NCBI GenBank assembly: GCA_030019075.1
Contig: JASEHD010000020.1
Location: 1-32,469 of the forward strand
Length of the DNA: 32,469 nt
Reading direction: 5' to 3'
From: Bacteroidota bacterium
GTDB lineage: Bacteria; Bacteroidota; Ignavibacteria; UBA10030; SZUA-254
This document shows, in pieces, positions 3,553-20,900 of this stretch (the first letter of the stretch is position 1; every line of letters starts with the position of its first letter). A model generated the notes under the pieces. That model was not told the DNA's origin, did not search any database, and worked only from the letters and a program-made list of their open reading frames with translations. A program made the position numbers and the translations under genes.

Positions 3553-3584
3553 AAGCCTCGGCGAAATTTCAGCCGGGGCTTTTC
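3553..3584. terminator. Bidirectional rho-independent terminator between convergent genes
   Basis: Arms AAGCCTCGGC (3553-3562) and GCCGGGGCTT (3572-3581) pair with one G-U, and TTTT follows on the + strand. On the - strand the hairpin is followed by a shorter T-rich run. It ends the S8 protease gene. The stop codon of the opposing glycosylase gene (3569-3571) lies in its loop, so the last codons of that gene run through one arm. Confidence 0.8.
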
Positions 3585-4333
3585 CTTCCACCTGAGGTGG
3601 ACGGATACGCCTCTGGTGTATATGTTTTTGAGACGAATGGACTATCTTTGATATAAAATCTCCAACGCTTTTCCTTTCCGTTATTTATTCCGATTCTTGT
3701 CGTGGAAACAATCTTTTCAGCCGTAGGCTGATCAGCCCTTGTCTGAGATTTCGGAACTGCTCCTCCAAAAGTAAGAAAGATTGAATCACCAAGTAAATCC
3801 GTTCCATTCTGCTCTCGTTTCAATCCAAATGCTTCACACAATTTCGCTGGTCCATTAGTCAAATTAACAACAACCCTCTTGCTTACATCATTCCATCCGC
3901 CGCAGGCGGACTCCAACAATCTCGACGAGTCGAGTCGTCGACCATTCCTCCGTTTTATCTCTCTGTTTCTTTTCATTATTTCAATACCTTTAATCGGCTC
4001 AACCGCTCTCAGCAAAACCGCTCTTCCTTTTCCTTCTTCTTCCGTTACGATGTTTGCGCAGAAGTGCATTCCGTATGTGAAATAAACGTAAAGATGTCCA
4101 CCTCTCCAGAACATCACATCGTTGCGTTTTGTTCTTCCGCGATACGCATGGCTCGCTGGATCGTTTTCGCCAAGGTAAGCTTCGACTTCGACAATTTTTC
4201 CAACGAGAAGATTCTTGTTTATTTTTCTGACAAGATATTTTCCAAGAAGGTCTTTTGCAACAGTTAGAGTTGAGCGAAGATAAAAAGGGCGAGGCAGTAT
4301 TTTCAGCTTTTTTTGTTCGAGACTAATTCCCAT
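3569..4333 (-). CDS. mpg: DNA-3-methyladenine glycosylase (AAG/MPG family)
   Basis: This base-excision repair enzyme removes alkylated purines such as 3-methyladenine from DNA. From the ATG at 4333 it has 254 residues; a TTG two codons upstream is possible, and neither has a clear ribosome site. Counting from that TTG, family motifs are EVEAY with catalytic Glu53 and Tyr55, His64 (ASHAY), Tyr86/Tyr89 and Asn96 in LYVYFTYGMHFCANI, Arg111 (LLRAVEP) and TNGPAKL at 161-167. These match human AAG Glu125, Tyr127, His136, Tyr159, Tyr162, Asn169 and Arg182. Unusual are a palindrome-encoded stretch at about 133-149, another around 200-208, and about 18 extra residues after the normal family end (SPFVSK), encoded by a double-hairpin repeat and the shared terminator. 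It is last in a - strand run, 50 nt after the TPR lipoprotein gene. The enzyme core looks intact. Confidence 0.93.
   Translation of the reverse strand: MGISLEQKKLKILPRPFYLRSTLTVAKDLLGKYLVRKINKNLLVGKIVEVEAYLGENDPASHAYRGRTKRNDVMFWRGGHLYVYFTYGMHFCANIVTEEEGKGRAVLLRAVEPIKGIEIMKRNREIKRRNGRRLDSSRLLESACGGWNDVSKRVVVNLTNGPAKLCEAFGLKREQNGTDLLGDSIFLTFGGAVPKSQTRADQPTAEKIVSTTRIGINNGKEKRWRFYIKDSPFVSKTYTPEAYPSTSGGRKSPG
3587..3620. repeat. Double-hairpin palindromic element at the 3' end of mpg
   Basis: The first hairpin is TCCACC-TGA-GGTGGA (3587-3601), perfect with 6-bp arms and a 3-base loop. Four bases later comes TACGCC-TCT-GGTGTA (3606-3620), the same geometry with one G-T pair. A close copy lies at 20784-20813 inside a T9SS sorting tail, where the second hairpin reads TACGCC-TCT-GGCGTA. 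Here it is read antisense as the extra C-terminal residues of the glycosylase. Confidence 0.8.
3717..3731. repeat. 6-3-6 palindrome inside mpg
   Basis: TCAGCC-GTA-GGCTGA is a perfect 6-bp inverted repeat with a 3-base loop. On the - strand it encodes the DQPTAE segment of the glycosylase, just before the conserved RIGI motif. The geometry is the same as the TCCGCC-type palindromes elsewhere in the window. Confidence 0.7.
3896..3942. repeat. Composite palindromic element in frame inside mpg
   Basis: TCCGCC-GCA-GGCGGA (3896-3910) is followed by a second inverted repeat, TCGACGA (3922-3928) and TCGTCGA (3935-3941). The 47-base stretch is read on the - strand without a stop and encodes residues from about Arg134 to Gly148. 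In the family the preceding helix normally leads much sooner to the LTNGP motif, so this looks like an in-frame insertion. Confidence 0.75.
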
Positions 4334-9695: not shown

Positions 9696-10616
9696 ATGAA
9701 CAAGTATATTAGAAGATTTATTTTTATAACCATCATACTTTCTATATTTTCCAGCAGCTGCCGGGAAAAGATTGATATCGATATCAACGCTTATAAAAAT
9801 GAATTTGAGCAGTGGCAAATAAAACGAGCAGAGAGTTTAAAAAAAGAGAACGGGTGGCTTACACTTTGCGGCTTGTTCTGGCTGAAAGAAGGTGAAAATA
9901 AATTTGGAACTGACTCTTCGAACACAATAATTTTTCCTCCCGGAAGATCACCAGCATACGCTGGCTCGATATTCTTAAAAAACAACCAGCTTAGCTTGAA
10001 GTGCGCAAAAAATGTAACAGTATTTTGTAACGACTCTGCAGTTTCAGAGATGAAAATCAAATCCGACGAAACGGGGAAAGCATCTCCAACTGTAATGAAA
10101 CTTGGCTCGTTAAGCTTTCATGTAATCAAGCGTGGTGAGGAACTTGGAGTACGGGTGCGTGATAAAGAAAATCCCCCACGAGTTAATTTTAAAGGATTAG
10201 AATATTTTCCCATTGATCCAGAGTGGCGAATCGAGGCAACATTTGTTCCTTATAATCCACCAAAGATTATTCCGATTGTAAACGTACTCAATCAAGTTAA
10301 AAATGACACATGCCCGGGTGCAATTGTATTTAAAAAGGATAGAAATACATACCGACTTGATGCACTTAGGGATGAGAAAGAGTTATTCATCATTTTCCAC
10401 GACGAGACTGCCGGGAAAGAAACCTACGCTATGGGACGTTTCCTTATGGCACCTCTACCAGATTCGAATAATATCGTAATTTTGGATTTTAATAAAGCAT
10501 ATAATCCCCCTTGTGCATTCACCGAGTTTGCAACTTGCCCCCTACCCCCAAAACAAAATCATCTTTCTCTTAGGATTGAAGCTGGTGAGAAAAAAGATGT
10601 GGGACGTGGACATTAA
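9696..10616 (+). CDS. DUF1684 domain lipoprotein
   Basis: The ATG at 9696 follows AAAGGG by 6 nt and gives 306 residues; an open frame upstream to 9555 overlaps the FKBP gene and its terminator and is not part of the gene. The signal segment ends at Cys22 (FSSSCREK), a lipoprotein site. The rest matches the DUF1684 family: FEQWQIKRAESLKKENGWLT, CGLFWLKEGENKFG, a middle segment RVRDKENPPRVNFKGLEYFP, and the conserved end LDFNKAYNPPCAFTEFATCP followed by RIEAGEK. The biochemical role of the family is not established. Length and end are typical for the family. It is probably transcribed alone, between a terminator upstream and a broken gene downstream. Confidence 0.88.
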   Translation: MNKYIRRFIFITIILSIFSSSCREKIDIDINAYKNEFEQWQIKRAESLKKENGWLTLCGLFWLKEGENKFGTDSSNTIIFPPGRSPAYAGSIFLKNNQLSLKCAKNVTVFCNDSAVSEMKIKSDETGKASPTVMKLGSLSFHVIKRGEELGVRVRDKENPPRVNFKGLEYFPIDPEWRIEATFVPYNPPKIIPIVNVLNQVKNDTCPGAIVFKKDRNTYRLDALRDEKELFIIFHDETAGKETYAMGRFLMAPLPDSNNIVILDFNKAYNPPCAFTEFATCPLPPKQNHLSLRIEAGEKKDVGRGH

Positions 10617-13779: not shown

Positions 13780-16700
13780 ATGAAATATCGAATACTCTCG
13801 TTTGTTTTTATATCATTTATTATGCTGTTAATTTTTCCGTTATCCAGTATTTTAGCGCAAGGGACGATAACCGCAGTACAAATTCCAACCGCAATAGCAG
13901 GTGGCGGTGGCGCTGGAACGTTGGGATATCCTTATGCTGTTTATGTCCAGATTCAAGGATGGACCGCGGGTGCAAATGGACAAGCATATCTAAAACTGTA
14001 CACTGGATCATTCAATGAATACATGTGGAGCGCAACAAGTGTATGGAGCAACACAACCACATACGGAGACGCTAACCAACCAAAGGTGGATATTGATGCG
14101 AGCGGAAATTGGTCCGGTTGGATTTATGCAAAACATAATGATGCTTTAGGTTCATCAGTATTGGTTAGAGCCAGAAAGATACCAACTTCTCCCACAGTTC
14201 AATTAACTACCAGTAGTATAGCGTTAACAATTTTAAACATGTCAACAACCGGTGGTTGGATTGTTAAACAAACCTCAACCGCCGTAAACAAAGGTATCAT
14301 CACTTATTCGGGTGGTGCGGTTGTTGGTTCGTATCGGTCGGAAGATAATTTAATAACAGAAGGTTATACATATGGAGCGGGTGGATTTAAAGTTGCTGTG
14401 CCTGCCGGGACTGTGGATTCATTGGTTGCCCTAAATGATGATGGTTCACGCTTTCAAACATTTGTTGGACCATGGACTGTATCAGCAGGACAGGAAACCG
14501 AAGCAGGTAATTCTGGTGGAACTGTTGGAAAAGGATCTGCAACAATTGAACCGACCGCAATTCAAGGAGCAATACCGGGGACATTAACATTAAAATTGGC
14601 AGGTGATGCACCCGATACAATTACGAAGGCACGTATTCATGTTCCCTCATCATGGTCATGGTCGCAATCGATGACTGATGTAAGTATTGTAGGTGGCGGA
14701 GCACCATCCGCAAATGTTTCAGGAGATACAATTGAAGTCTCAACCTTGACGTTGATAGGAACCGACACGATGAAACTAACAATCACAAATCTAATCCCTT
14801 ATGATTCAACAGGATATTTTACATTTCTAACCGAGACCGGATTGCACAGCGATACCGTCAGTGCAATTGCAACTCAACCCAAAATATTTGTTTACAGCAC
14901 ACCAATACCGATAGCAATTGCAAAGGAAAATGACGCTCTGGGAGTTCCGCTCCTCAATAATGCTTTGATAACCGTCCGTGGAGTTGTTACTTCCGGCAAT
15001 CAACTTGGTGCCGCGGCGTATATTCAGGATAACTCAGGCGGTATGGTGGTGTACGGTTCGTCATTTTCATCGGCAGTAACAATTGGAGATGAGGTAATAG
15101 TTTCAGGTTTAGTCCAACCGTTTTACGGATTGTTCGAAATTGTGAATCCGATGCTTCATTCAATTATAAGTCAAGGTAATCCGGTTGAGCCGCTTGTTGT
15201 TACAACATCACAAATTGCAAAGGATGGAATCGGCGGAGTTGAAGTATATGAAGGTTCACTTGTTCGAATTAACAGTGTAACGGTTACCGATACGTTCAAT
15301 GTAGCTATCCCGACATGGGCAGTAACAGGTTCAGGTACGAACTATCGTTTACATGATGCGACCGGTTATATCGTTATTCGTGTAAGCCCTCTTGTTGAGT
15401 TTGCAAATCAACCAGCGCCGCAGAAAATATTCGATGTGATCGGTGTGGTTAGTCAGTTTAAATATACCGCTCCATATATCGGCGGTTATCAGTTGATGCC
15501 GAGATTCTTAAAAGATATTATTGCCACAGGTCCCATAATCGCAACCATGCCTGAAGAAAGCAATCTTCAACCGACATCGTTAATAATTAGCTGGGCAACG
15601 TTATATCCAGGGACAACAGAAATCCGATACGGGAAAACCAATTCATACGAACTCGGGTTTATTAAATTAGATGATTCATTACGTTTGAATCATTCTATAG
15701 CCCTGAGCGGCTTAATTGTTGCAACGATCTATAACATTCAAGCATTTTCCACAAGCGGCACCGATACAAGTTTTGCAGGTAATCTAATCGTAAGTACAAC
15801 GTCAGCATCCCCGACAACAGGGCAAATTAATGTGTATTTTAATAAGAGCATAAATAGCTCAGTTTCGATTGGCGAAGTAGCTCAAGGAAATGTTGATTTT
15901 GTTGCTAAGCTCGTTTCGCGAATTAGTAATGCAAAACAATCAATCGATTTGGCACTTTATAGTTTAAGTGGAACCGTTGGTGCCAACGTGGCGAGTGCGC
16001 TCGTTTTTGCAAAGCAGCGTGGTGTGAAAGTGCGTGTTATTGGTGAATATGATAATAGGACCACCGTCCCTTGGTCAACACTTGCTTCGAATGGGATCCC
16101 GGTTATTTACGATATGTACGGTGCGAATGATGGCTCAGGTTTACACCACAATAAATTTATCGTTATCGATTATCGTGGGGGTGCCGCAGAGAGTGTCTGG
16201 GTTTGGACTGGTTCAACTAATTTCACCGACCCGGGTATAACTGCTGATAGACAAAACGTCATCGAGATTCAAGATGTTGCACTTGCCGGTGCCTTTACTG
16301 CTGAGTTTGAAGAAATGTGGGGCAGTAAAACCGAAACTCCTAATTCAGCAAACTCAAGATTTGGTGCAAGAAAACAAAACAACACACCACATAAATTTGT
16401 TGTTGGCGGGAAAAATATTGAATGTTACTTTAGTCCGAGTGATCGCACAACTTATTATATCGGTAAGACATTGGGAAAAGCACAAGGATCGATTAACACC
16501 GCAATATTAACATTTACCCGAAAAGAACTTGCCGATTCAATAATCAATAAGAAGAAAGCGGGTCGGAAGACACGTGTTGTAATGGATAACAACACCGATC
16601 TTGGAAACCAATATAGCTATTTACAATCAAATTCTGTTGATGTATTGCTGAAAGGAGGAAGCGGAATGCTCCATCATAAATACGCTATAGTTGATGCAGA

Positions 16701-17202
16701 ACCAACGGGTAGAGGGGCTTATGTCATTACCGGCTCGCATAACTGGTCAAGCTCTGCCGAGACAAGGAATGATGAGAATACATTGATTATTCAGGATGAT
16801 CGCATCGGGAATCTCTATTTACAGGAATTTCTTGCTCGTTATCTTGAAGCAGGCGGCTCTGATCCGGTTGTTGTAGGTGTTGAAAAAATTGATAATGAAA
16901 TTCCGGCATCTTATTCATTATCGCAAAACTATCCCAACCCGTTCAACCCAACGACAGATATCAGATATCAGATATCAGATATCGGATTTGTTTCTATTAA
17001 AATTTATGATATTCTTGGACGAGAGATTACCACACTTGTAAACGAAGTTAAACAACCTGGGACTTATGAAGTTACTTGGGATGCGTCCGCCTCAGGCGGA
17101 TTTGCAAGCGGAGTGTATTATTATAAAATTCAGGTTAACGATCCTTCGACCAGCTCAGGACACAGTTTTGTTGATGTAAAAAAGATGCTGTTATTGCGTT
17201 AA
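13780..17202 (+). CDS. Secreted phospholipase-D-type nuclease with OB-fold, FN3 and T9SS tail
   Basis: 1140 residues; ATG at 13780 after AAAAGGA. Signal peptide at about 1-26 (SSILAQG). Unrecognised beta-rich regions run to about 375. An OB-fold/DUF5689-like nucleic-acid-binding-type domain lies at about 380-580 (ALITVRGVVTSGNQLGAAAY, GDEVIVSGLVQPFYGLFEI). An FN3 domain lies at about 590-680. Two PLD halves follow: HKD1 His790-Lys792-Asp797 (HHNKFIVID) with GSTNFTD, and HKD2 His965-Lys967-Asp972 (LHHKYAIVD) with GSHNWSS. Both active-site halves are present, so it should be active, most likely on extracellular DNA, as other OB-plus-nuclease exported proteins are; phospholipid is an alternative. 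The T9SS tail (about 1044-1140) holds a 4x7-base repeat, a 15-base palindrome and a 24-base insert. A strong terminator follows. Confidence 0.92.
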   Translation: MKYRILSFVFISFIMLLIFPLSSILAQGTITAVQIPTAIAGGGGAGTLGYPYAVYVQIQGWTAGANGQAYLKLYTGSFNEYMWSATSVWSNTTTYGDANQPKVDIDASGNWSGWIYAKHNDALGSSVLVRARKIPTSPTVQLTTSSIALTILNMSTTGGWIVKQTSTAVNKGIITYSGGAVVGSYRSEDNLITEGYTYGAGGFKVAVPAGTVDSLVALNDDGSRFQTFVGPWTVSAGQETEAGNSGGTVGKGSATIEPTAIQGAIPGTLTLKLAGDAPDTITKARIHVPSSWSWSQSMTDVSIVGGGAPSANVSGDTIEVSTLTLIGTDTMKLTITNLIPYDSTGYFTFLTETGLHSDTVSAIATQPKIFVYSTPIPIAIAKENDALGVPLLNNALITVRGVVTSGNQLGAAAYIQDNSGGMVVYGSSFSSAVTIGDEVIVSGLVQPFYGLFEIVNPMLHSIISQGNPVEPLVVTTSQIAKDGIGGVEVYEGSLVRINSVTVTDTFNVAIPTWAVTGSGTNYRLHDATGYIVIRVSPLVEFANQPAPQKIFDVIGVVSQFKYTAPYIGGYQLMPRFLKDIIATGPIIATMPEESNLQPTSLIISWATLYPGTTEIRYGKTNSYELGFIKLDDSLRLNHSIALSGLIVATIYNIQAFSTSGTDTSFAGNLIVSTTSASPTTGQINVYFNKSINSSVSIGEVAQGNVDFVAKLVSRISNAKQSIDLALYSLSGTVGANVASALVFAKQRGVKVRVIGEYDNRTTVPWSTLASNGIPVIYDMYGANDGSGLHHNKFIVIDYRGGAAESVWVWTGSTNFTDPGITADRQNVIEIQDVALAGAFTAEFEEMWGSKTETPNSANSRFGARKQNNTPHKFVVGGKNIECYFSPSDRTTYYIGKTLGKAQGSINTAILTFTRKELADSIINKKKAGRKTRVVMDNNTDLGNQYSYLQSNSVDVLLKGGSGMLHHKYAIVDAEPTGRGAYVITGSHNWSSSAETRNDENTLIIQDDRIGNLYLQEFLARYLEAGGSDPVVVGVEKIDNEIPASYSLSQNYPNPFNPTTDIRYQISDIGFVSIKIYDILGREITTLVNEVKQPGTYEVTWDASASGGFASGVYYYKIQVNDPSTSSGHSFVDVKKMLLLR
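16956..16983 (+). repeat. Tandem 7-base repeat (AGATATC x4) in a T9SS tail
   Basis: Four perfect copies of AGATATC lie head to tail in the coding sequence of the nuclease sorting tail, encoding DIRYQISDI. The unit is not a multiple of three, so a change in copy number would shift the frame and remove the end of the sorting signal. Confidence 0.85.
17086..17100. repeat. TCCGCC-type palindrome in a T9SS tail
   Basis: TCCGCC-TCA-GGCGGA is perfect and exactly five codons long (SASGG), placed directly before FASGVYYY of the nuclease sorting tail. It is the same 6-3-6 element as in the glycosylase gene and at 20784. Confidence 0.75.
17143..17166 (+). repeat. 24-base in-frame insert in the nuclease T9SS tail
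   Basis: Eight codons (PSTSSGHS, CCTTCGACCAGCTCAGGA at its start) lie between the YYYKIQVND and FVDVKK strands. The S8 protease tail has an insert of the same length at the equivalent place (3468-3491), with 16 of 24 bases identical. Two other tails in the window have much shorter or different sequence there. Confidence 0.65.
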
Positions 17203-17325: not shown

Positions 17326-17435
17326 GTCATGCTGAACTTGGTTCAGCATCCCTGCTTGCAGCAGGCAAGTACGCAAAGCAAGCAGGTTTGCTGAGGTCAG
17401 ATTCCGATCCCGCTCTATGAGCGGGACGGAATGAC
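17326..17435. repeat. Composite intergenic palindromic repeat element
   Basis: The unit is bounded by GTCAT and ATGAC. Inside are three inverted repeats: ATGCTGAAC-TTG-GTTCAGCAT (17329-17349, perfect 9-bp arms), CCTGCTTGC (17351-17359) with GCAAGCAGG (17378-17386), and TCCCGCTC-TAT-GAGCGGGA (17408-17426, perfect 8-bp arms). It encodes no protein. The form is like REP/BIME-type repeats; I recall similar GTCATGCTGAAC-type repeats in other genomes but cannot verify that here. Confidence 0.75.
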
Positions 17436-20500: not shown

Positions 20501-20900
20501 AGAGTTATTAGTCAAAATTCTAACAGATTTCAAAGAAGAACCAACTACGGGTATTAATGTAACTGATCAGTTAGTGCCAAGTGAATTTCGATTGTATGAT
20601 GCATATCCCAATCCGTTCAATCCATCGACGAAAATACAGTTTGAGCTTCCACAGGAAAGTCATGTTACTTTAAAAATATATGATCTACTTGGACGAGAAG
20701 TTGAACGATTGATAGATGAAACACTTCCGGCGGGAAAATATAACATTGAATGGAATCCTTCGACGGGTTCATCAAGCGGTGTTTCCGCCAAAGGCGGATA
20801 CGCCTCTGGCGTATATTTATATCGGCTCAACGCACAAAGTTTGAGGATAAATGATACGCGTAATTTTTCAAATACTAAGAAGGTCATATTAATGAAGTAA
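17580..20900 (+). CDS. Large secreted FN3 protein with acidic calcium-type region and T9SS tail
   Basis: 1106 residues; ATG at 17580 with a strong AGGAGGT ribosome site 5 nt before it. Signal peptide at about 1-20. Residues about 160-205 are very acidic (DDDGDGKVDEDDLDG, TDNDGDWDPIYDDVGEDG), like calcium-binding thrombospondin type 3 or EF-hand-like loops. FN3 domains lie at about 490-580, 585-670 and 675-760 (each with YNVY/YRVYH ... YYY/HYFAVAA patterns). Residues about 780-990 include LLGGGKLLFMGRGLP and YYLSFPLYYLDSINARELL, reminiscent of glutamine-amidotransferase-like folds but without a visible catalytic set. The T9SS tail (about 1001-1106) carries inserted repeats at 20757-20813. No enzyme activity can be assigned; adhesion or surface structure is plausible. 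The next gene begins 53 nt later, probably on the same transcript. Confidence 0.88.
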   Translation: MKLFTNVIVLSLLLGFSASGSIPKSNKFKQTNHREGGTSFSKPSETMVNFALRVKQGFNMRVWISNQMTMGLQAWDGEQNTPDGFGMEYPAGSGVEHIYGAGPRIGGIIDGARRVSEGYNGTDARKEFLPEWRHLYRERIWRTSIRESIDPNTGKFYPNKSGYDDDGDGKVDEDDLDGTDNDGDWDPIYDDVGEDGLPDSLEVGCKGGYNSVTNPDPAYDNFRPGEYDKCHLNPDGTWRLITFADRDRYTEKNGLPDHGEPNVDEDYGAVSDQDYYCSATDTFIHPVIGGHKPMWIKVIQKSYAWDGGSAEAILPFEYIFINMGRKVIKDVYIGFFADCDVGPINTSRYYERNYSAYDEITKTSYVHNPIDNGSTPIGFTLLGSTKPLDSLSFIWQWCDFTRPDPGTDDSVIYSWMSGEAFPGQPIAPNQSPDNLSDTRFYFSIGKFDSMKPGDTLKISLALVSGMSVPEMLTNAQRAHRINKSNGFIMPVVHIADSGTGAPITIYWDALARSPYGNVISYRVYHGTSSGHYTDSIDTGNLSTTFSGLMGSQTHYFAVAAYDDKGNRSALSDEITNVPYIPSGLVVINQQTSIVLHWNANPDPDIAGYNVYRRSSVDSTLVKITPNLLTLPSYIDTDVWGNKIYYYQISAVDRDGHESEYSLPKSGRLIPPATPANFVVGPGKKFLHLSWSANTEDDIVGYNIYKKGGLHSDFVKLNADVWITTNYIDSMVLQDVDYYYYIEAIDRTDAVSSPTYPFGVHTASMDNGILAVNLNDNSITLPSYRFCESLLVGYKHRTIPYRPPVYIPGHVNELGKYSSVLWLEDSPPGAKLPYYPRAFPIALKGYLLGGGKLLFMGRGLPSQSYPHWYQFLSEYFGIDPFLEVDSTFNFAGAAGAWDFPTVSVDTVKLSSKGKRLNYVERFSDISPVRVLYRYQSDPFDPSREGKTIGMRAIDPSINAYYLSFPLYYLDSINARELLVKILTDFKEEPTTGINVTDQLVPSEFRLYDAYPNPFNPSTKIQFELPQESHVTLKIYDLLGREVERLIDETLPAGKYNIEWNPSTGSSSGVSAKGGYASGVYLYRLNAQSLRINDTRNFSNTKKVILMK
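20757..20813. repeat. Repeat-derived insert with double hairpin in a T9SS tail
   Basis: CCTTCGACGGGTTCATC starts a stretch like the 24-base insert at 17143. It is followed by two perfect 6-3-6 hairpins, TCCGCC-AAA-GGCGGA (20784-20798) and TACGCC-TCT-GGCGTA (20799-20813). They encode PSTGSSSG and VSAKGGYASGVY in frame. The double hairpin is a close copy of 3587-3620. Confidence 0.75.

Follow-up and report, generated by a model that had tools for sequence, protein, structure and literature searches.

Palindromes inserted in frame into genes have been described chiefly in Rickettsia and Wolbachia, and tend to be regarded as an oddity of these intracellular bacteria. Among other small repeats, MITEs usually show target duplications and have a parent transposon. 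The Rickettsia palindromic elements (RPEs) are approximately 150 bp long, encode a conserved peptide, and have been described in Rickettsia, where they lie in frame (PMC10969869). MITEs are 70-300 bp long, and the two REP superfamilies are recognised by a tetranucleotide, GTAG or CGTC, at the foot of the hairpin (PMC3733652). The mitochondrial double-hairpin elements and the GC clusters of yeast are tiny, GC-rich, made of hairpins and thought to be mobile (PMC5910586, PMC4478555). The elements of Allomyces mitochondria also consist of two hairpins.

The element described here is distinct, far smaller and sharply defined, and is likewise found in frame in rpoB, cysS, pyrG, hemB, dnaG and other genes of Patescibacteria, Omnitrophota, Ignavibacteria and further lineages. 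It works like the RPEs and the mitochondrial double-hairpin elements, to which it is likened by description and with no claim of membership of either. As in the palindromic elements of Rickettsia and Wolbachia, the copies are palindromic and in frame in unrelated, probably functional protein genes. However, the element here is 30 bp (10 codons) long, rather than about 150 bp with a matching conserved peptide, and it differs from the RPEs in its double hairpin with compensating arms, its defined target, its hotspot in tRNA remnants and its range across phyla. With the mitochondrial elements it shares two adjacent GC-rich hairpins that are inserted as a unit, but its copies are on bacterial contigs, and the likeness to these elements and to the GC clusters is one of description. 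REP and BIME repeats are likewise small hairpins, single or paired and in some cases within ORFs (PMC3733652), whereas the element here has neither a GTAG or CGTC tag nor Y1 linkage and has a fixed 30-bp head-to-tail form with zero spacer. Like the MITEs, it appears to be non-autonomous, with no coding capacity and an inverted-repeat structure, but it is shorter (30 bp), and neither target duplication nor a parent transposon was seen. No description of these double-hairpin elements was found in the open-access literature that was searched, and the family of 30-letter insertions, which recurs in many lineages of uncultured bacteria, is apparently undescribed.

The window, which is the whole stretch of DNA analysed (32,469 nucleotides; contig JASEHD010000020.1, 1-32,469, forward strand), provides all coordinates given below for this genome unless another contig is named (Table 1). 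The protein encoded by its mpg gene matched human AAG (1f4r) with an E value of 8e-31 (phmmer). An earlier note had listed four palindromes with 6-bp arms and 3-base loops in this gene, and a second inverted repeat adjoining the last of them. The palindromes at 3587-3601, 3717-3731 and 3896-3910 are perfect, the one at 3606-3620 has a mismatch at one of its six pairs, and the second inverted repeat is present in the sequence. The four are better grouped into a near-intact double hairpin, a decayed one whose halves are 4 bp apart, and a lone single hairpin. The double-hairpin unit had been overlooked, as had the target site, the broad taxonomic spread and the tRNA hotspot.

Table 1. Features of the window, with positions in the window, and elements in protein genes of other genomes (a dot marks a feature listed without a strand)
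Feature	Position	Strand	Basis or remark
mpg, ORF for AAG-family 3-methyladenine DNA glycosylase, 256 aa	3569..4339	-	relatives' alignment and human AAG match
Decayed double hairpin TCCACC-TGA-GGTGGA, 4-bp spacer, TACGCC-TCT-GGTGTA (one mismatch)	3587..3620	.	tandem scan
30-bp double hairpin TCAGCC-GTA-GGCTGA + TCAGCC-CTT-GTCTGA, in frame in mpg	3717..3746	.	gap in relatives and tandem scan
Single 15-bp hairpin TCCGCC-GCA-GGCGGA, variable loop of mpg	3896..3910	.	genome pattern search
Inverted repeat TCGACGA-N6-TCGTCGA adjoining the 3896 hairpin; sequence unrelated to the main family	3922..3941	.	sequence check
Single hairpin TCCGCC-TCA-GGCGGA, C-terminal domain of gene 13780-17202	17086..17100	+	genome pattern search
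Perfect double hairpin TCCGCCAAAGGCGGA+TACGCCTCTGGCGTA in gene ending with type IX secretion C-terminal domain	20784..20813	+	tandem scan, phylum scan
Element in rpoB (Doudnabacteria)			gap of 8 vs solved structure
Element in cysS (Falkowbacteria)			gap of exactly 10 residues vs solved structure; adjoins KMSKS-type motif
Element in pyrG			gap of 7 vs solved structure
Element in hemB (Chloroflexota)			gap of exactly 10 residues vs solved structure
Element in dnaG (Kaiserbacteria)			gene name by sequence reading
Element in uvrB (Liptonbacteria)			gene name by sequence reading
Two elements in pheT (Campbellbacteria)			gene name by sequence reading
Elements in Fe-Fe hydrogenase and transketolase			gene names by sequence reading

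The proposal that palindromes had been inserted in frame into mpg was supported, and one segment is a clean 30-bp insertion. The DNA at 3717-3746 consists of TCAGCCGTAGGCTGA followed by TCAGCCCTTGTCTGA, exactly 30 bp, flanked as CTTT^GATTT. The corresponding 10 residues (approximately 198-207) face a gap in all 11 of the relatives aligned from the same family, and in silico excision of the element yielded ...PKSKIVSTTRIG, matching the ...PESKIISTIRIG of the counterpart in one of them (G006). Its second half (3732-3746) pairs at five of six positions, and because of this mismatch the insertion is judged not to be recent.

The other two segments that had been taken for insertions are of different kinds. 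The pair at 3587-3620 prolongs the reading frame past the normal stop codon of the family: relatives end at ...FVSK, and the resulting C-terminal tail was absent from 11 of 11, with one relative (G007) ending in a tail that differs from it. The intact counterpart of this decayed pair is in the same window, as the perfect TCCGCC-AAA-GGCGGA/TACGCC-TCT-GGCGTA at 20784. Residues 133-149 (approximate limits) fall in a loop that separates conserved blocks of the family and varies in length. G007 shares the TTGGAGTCCGCCTGCGGCGGATGGA segment in this loop and has a further copy of it, so the 3896 copy is not unique to the genome of the window. G006 has a different, nested palindromic insert in this loop. 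Palindromic inserts were found there in three genera, in which the loop is prone to insertion. All three segments are outside the best conserved blocks as judged by the human AAG match. Palindromes resembling the adjoining inverted repeat (CGACGA...TCGTCG) occurred once in approximately 885 kb sampled from the same genome. At the 5' edge of mpg in relatives (L017-L019), a PSPRRRG/SSPRRRG-like sequence upstream of the start looks like a further GC-rich palindromic repeat.

Elsewhere in the window, the double hairpin at 20784-20813 is read in phase 0 and encodes SAKGGYASGV, and near-identical insertions are present at the same motif in two other genomes (G373 and G162). The single hairpin at 17086-17100 encodes SASGG. 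Other peptides in the type IX secretion C-terminal domains (such as DPSTSSG and NPSTGSSSG, within 17086-17200 and 20740-20813) resemble short in-frame repeat inserts of another kind, with a sequence that differs from the double hairpin. The intergenic region at 17329-17425 holds a cluster of unrelated palindromes (CTGAACTTGGTTCAG, CCTGCTTGCAGCAGG and CCCGCTCTATGAGCGGG).

The search of the whole genome that the earlier note had proposed showed that such palindromes exceed chance: the pattern TCCGCC-N3-GGCGGA (TCCGCCNNNGGCGGA) occurred 43 times in 3.18 Mb, and the reversed-pattern control was not found at all. The same pattern was present in all 14 other family members (1-38 copies each; control 0-2). 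In 414 kb of contigs with matches, there were 69 GC-rich 6-3-6 palindromes, versus 16 in a Markov shuffle, a ratio that is biased upward because the contigs were picked for having matches, and the enrichment of GC-rich palindromes with 6-bp arms in these contigs was greatest at a loop length of 3. No palindrome excess was detected in approximately 500 kb of contigs from the same genome that contained no matches, which indicates that the copies are patchily distributed. In this genome the doubles are fewer than the single 15-bp hairpins, which often have TNA loops. These singles are not fully accounted for by a 30-bp element, and count against it. Both the genome-wide excess and the in-frame copies in many other genes fit the likeness to the Rickettsia palindromic elements that had been suggested for mpg.

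The unit is a 30-bp double hairpin, which consists of two head-to-tail 15-bp palindromes of the 6-3-6 form. Among tandem palindrome pairs searched at spacers of 0-8, those with zero spacer numbered 16, versus 0 in shuffled sequence; pairs at other spacings were few and, apart from the decayed one at 3587 with its 4-bp spacer, seemingly unrelated. The strict search pattern, TNNGCCNNNGGCNNATNNGCCNNNGGCNNA, places no constraint on the loops or on positions 2-3 of the arms, and covariation was tested only at these unconstrained arm positions; loci above 62% GC were excluded from the covariation and coding-phase statistics. The free arm positions were paired within each half in 92-95% of cases (163 unique elements at loci below 62% GC). 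In the 105 elements with unlike halves, these positions paired within the half in 89-92%, and across the halves in 33-50%. Sites with two or fewer changes from TCCGCC...GGCGGA on contigs with matches comprised 16 paired double, 11 unpaired double and 4 single changes. This covariation within halves indicates that the two-hairpin structure is more conserved than the sequence. It also led to rejection of one long hairpin as the unit, yet the whole 30-mer can fold in that way. The most frequent arms were TCCGCC, TCAGCC, TGCGCC, TGAGCC and TACGCC. Loop 1 is mainly purine, usually with A as the last base, and loop 2 is mainly pyrimidine, usually with T as the first. Folding z-scores were near -5 in three of the four examples that were folded.

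The element is inserted as an exact unit at short pyrimidine/purine sites, mainly TTY^RAA. The flanks are symmetric, with T at position -2 in 75-100%, C or T at position -1 in 82-90%, and the complements opposite. Empty sites show the same profile, which is therefore a property of the target and not of the element. Filled and empty versions of one site were found both across species, in mpg, and within one contig, in tRNA-Ser paralogues. The latter contig (C172 of genome G000, locus L111) has an intact tRNA-Ser(CGA) at 9962-10050 with partial copies alongside, in which exactly 30 bp interrupt GGTT^GAAAG of the D-loop and TCTC^GAAAAC of the anticodon loop. Another long inverted repeat family (ATTGTCATTCTGAACGAAG...CTCAGAATGACA) adjoins this tRNA-Ser cassette at 10200-10290. 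Adjacent direct repeats were found in 8 of 137 cases, versus 4 of 137 in the mispaired control; since this is not a clear excess, target duplication does not appear to be part of the process. Targeting of DNA hairpin loops beyond TTY^RAA was considered but found no support, as flanks outside tRNA-like sites were barely more complementary than mispaired flanks.

Remnants of tRNA genes are a recurrent location of the element. In relatives, it repeatedly interrupted a partial tRNA copy precisely at the T-loop (GGTTC^GAATCC or an equivalent), beside an intact tRNA of the same kind, and the remnants were of tRNA-Ser, Val, Lys, Pro, Arg and Ala. The same arrangement was found in other phyla, with a tRNA-Ser in Bacteroidetes and, in other MAGs, remnants of tRNA-Val, Ile, Gly and Arg. 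One locus (L153; contig C9 of G349, 1400-2280) contains an array of tRNA-Val 3' ends, spaced at 140 bp, with a double hairpin in each T-loop. These examples from relatives and other phyla were found via the element itself. To avoid circularity, tRNA 3' fragments in the genome of the window were sought without reference to the element: the flanks of its 38 tRNAs contained six such fragments, four with a hairpin exactly at the T-loop and two without a hairpin. In 69 kb of element-bearing loci, the only Rfam matches were to tRNAs.

Many copies of the element are in protein genes. Gene names are readings of the sequences, and matches to solved structures confirm cysS, pyrG, rpoB and hemB. The gaps of 7 and 8 in pyrG and rpoB depart from the 10 residues seen in cysS and hemB, and count against the element. 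Among the matches listed, 45 of 162 unique elements (those with at least three of the four free pairs) were inside long open frames, in many phyla. The residue preceding the insertion is most often Phe, as expected for TTY^RAA in phase 0. In 28 elements, none of the three sense frames contained a stop, and 25 of these elements were in phase 0, compared to an expectation of 60% that was derived from how TY^RA sites are phased within the same ORFs (p = 6e-4). Phase 0 yields SAxGGSAxGG, a small flexible peptide. Arms bearing stop codons were found in 4 of 41 coding copies versus 69 of 116 others, a difference that is partly forced by the requirement for an open frame. The phase-0 excess suggests selection on the translated peptide, and hence that the element probably undergoes translation and is not removed. 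In a PheT-like ORF of Candidatus Campbellbacteria (L219, approximately 5845), an apparent NlpC/P60-type domain is inserted right after the second double hairpin. A helicase-like ORF of Candidatus Magasanikbacteria (L250, approximately 1949) contains other in-frame repeat peptides, SSRAESRDLDNTTRDSSTALRSGRND and VILNEAKRNEESS, which suggests that there are several families of in-frame repeats in Patescibacteria.

The genomes compared were mostly MAGs, one per species. Of the 395 genomes searched in the phylum, 18 contained strict double hairpins, with at most 13 copies each, and the control was zero in all 395. Among the matches listed, the element was present in many named genomes, including those of Patescibacteria, Omnitrophota, Ignavibacteria, Kiritimatiellae, Elusimicrobia, Zixiibacteriota, Bacteroidetes and others. 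Matches in Streptomyces, Micromonospora and other high-GC genomes look like chance, and several of them fail to pair. Among viral contigs, only 13 stretches in 2.9 million matched a narrower pattern, and carriage by phages was rejected because of this near-absence.

Taken as a whole, the palindromes are probably intact and decayed copies of a non-autonomous miniature mobile element that has a hotspot in tRNA genes and is kept in protein genes only where it can be translated. The double hairpin is inserted as an exact unit, without target duplication, at sites centred on TTY^RAA. In tRNA genes, sites of this kind are present in the D-arm, in the anticodon loop and, as GGTTC^GAATCC, in the T-loop. 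An intact tRNA gene presumably could not receive the element without lethal effect, so that only redundant copies hold it, and the tRNA remnants would be a hotspot because insertions survive only in such partial copies. In protein genes, 30 bp add 10 codons, and the phase-0 peptide may be tolerated even in essential enzymes, with the result that surviving coding copies would be mostly in phase 0. Spread is likely to have involved active copy-and-paste mobility, with an enzyme acting in trans, possibly on the element as a folded single strand; GIY-YIG cassettes are a candidate source of it. Such an element would be a direct route for selfish DNA to add linkers to essential proteins. Its specific tRNA hotspot needs explanation, and the countable motif can be tested for in metaproteomes and genome collections.

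A system centred on the tRNAs themselves is an unlikely but conceivable variant for many uncultured bacteria: the minimal 30-bp double hairpin would be the transposing unit, entering TTC^GAA-type sites of tRNA genes together with cassettes, often with a GIY-YIG nuclease gene, that supply a fresh intact tRNA, it would disarm the remnant, and it would leak into protein genes. If true, this leakage would seed 10-residue linkers in essential enzymes across phyla. Also unlikely is that the hairpin belongs to cassettes encoding a GIY-YIG endonuclease, which would home into tRNA genes and reach protein genes as off-target events. The nuclease would cut TTC^GAA-like sites, and the hairpin would be copied into the break, or would mark and protect the displaced tRNA remnant. 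The GIY-YIG gene is often found between the remnant and the intact tRNA, and this order of hairpin remnant, GIY-YIG gene and intact tRNA recurs mostly at tRNA-Ser loci. There were 20 GIY-YIG ORFs in 208 kb of hairpin loci from relatives (overlaps counted twice), versus 2 in 503 kb of match-free contigs from the genome of the window. GIY-YIG genes were also more numerous in hairpin-positive genomes (p = 2e-4), a comparison that is confounded by relatedness and by the general load of mobile elements. However, no GIY-YIG gene was detected near the Val, Lys, Arg and Ala remnants with hairpins or near the Pro remnant of genome G011, and loci from other phyla, mostly Patescibacteria, were little enriched (3 of 80). 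These GIY-YIG-free tRNA insertions and the scarcity at loci of other phyla argue against GIY-YIG as the sole cause.

It is improbable that the copies are REP/RAYT-type elements, whose hairpins a Y1 (REP-associated) transposase would move in single-stranded form. The hairpin form, small size, lack of target duplication and occasional copies in genes are all features of such elements, and the genome of the window has seven Y1 transposase matches. However, the flanks are TTY^RAA, with no GTAG or CGTC tag, none of the seven Y1 loci had a GC-rich 6-3-6 palindrome within approximately 1.5 kb, and two element-rich genomes, G011 with 11 copies and G292 with 7, had no Y1 match.

A local origin, with no movement between sites, is more improbable still. 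Template switching is able to perfect palindromes, and this process, or quasi-palindrome correction, would create the palindromes and keep them perfect, or they would come from Ser/Gly-rich coding such as type IX secretion C-terminal domains, where several copies in the genome of the window are located. However, distant phyla have the same consensus, of the same exact length and at the same target site, both in tRNA remnants and in genes that are unrelated, and the arms are not supplied by the flanks. The least probable explanation is that the hairpins were selected in place for a function as RNA or DNA signals, such as terminators, processing sites or protein binding sites; their stability and the position of some between genes are consistent with this, but they are located within essential reading frames and broken tRNA copies, are missing at the same site in relatives, and had no Rfam counterpart other than tRNA in the 69 kb of loci.

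The architecture of the mobile element that is favoured here was also found with another sequence and arm length. On contig C182 of G373 (L156), a 22-bp double hairpin, TCCCGAAGGGA-TCCCTTTGGGA, is located at the TTC^GAA T-loop site of a tRNA remnant, between a tRNA-Ser at 1856-1943 and a hairpin at 1359.
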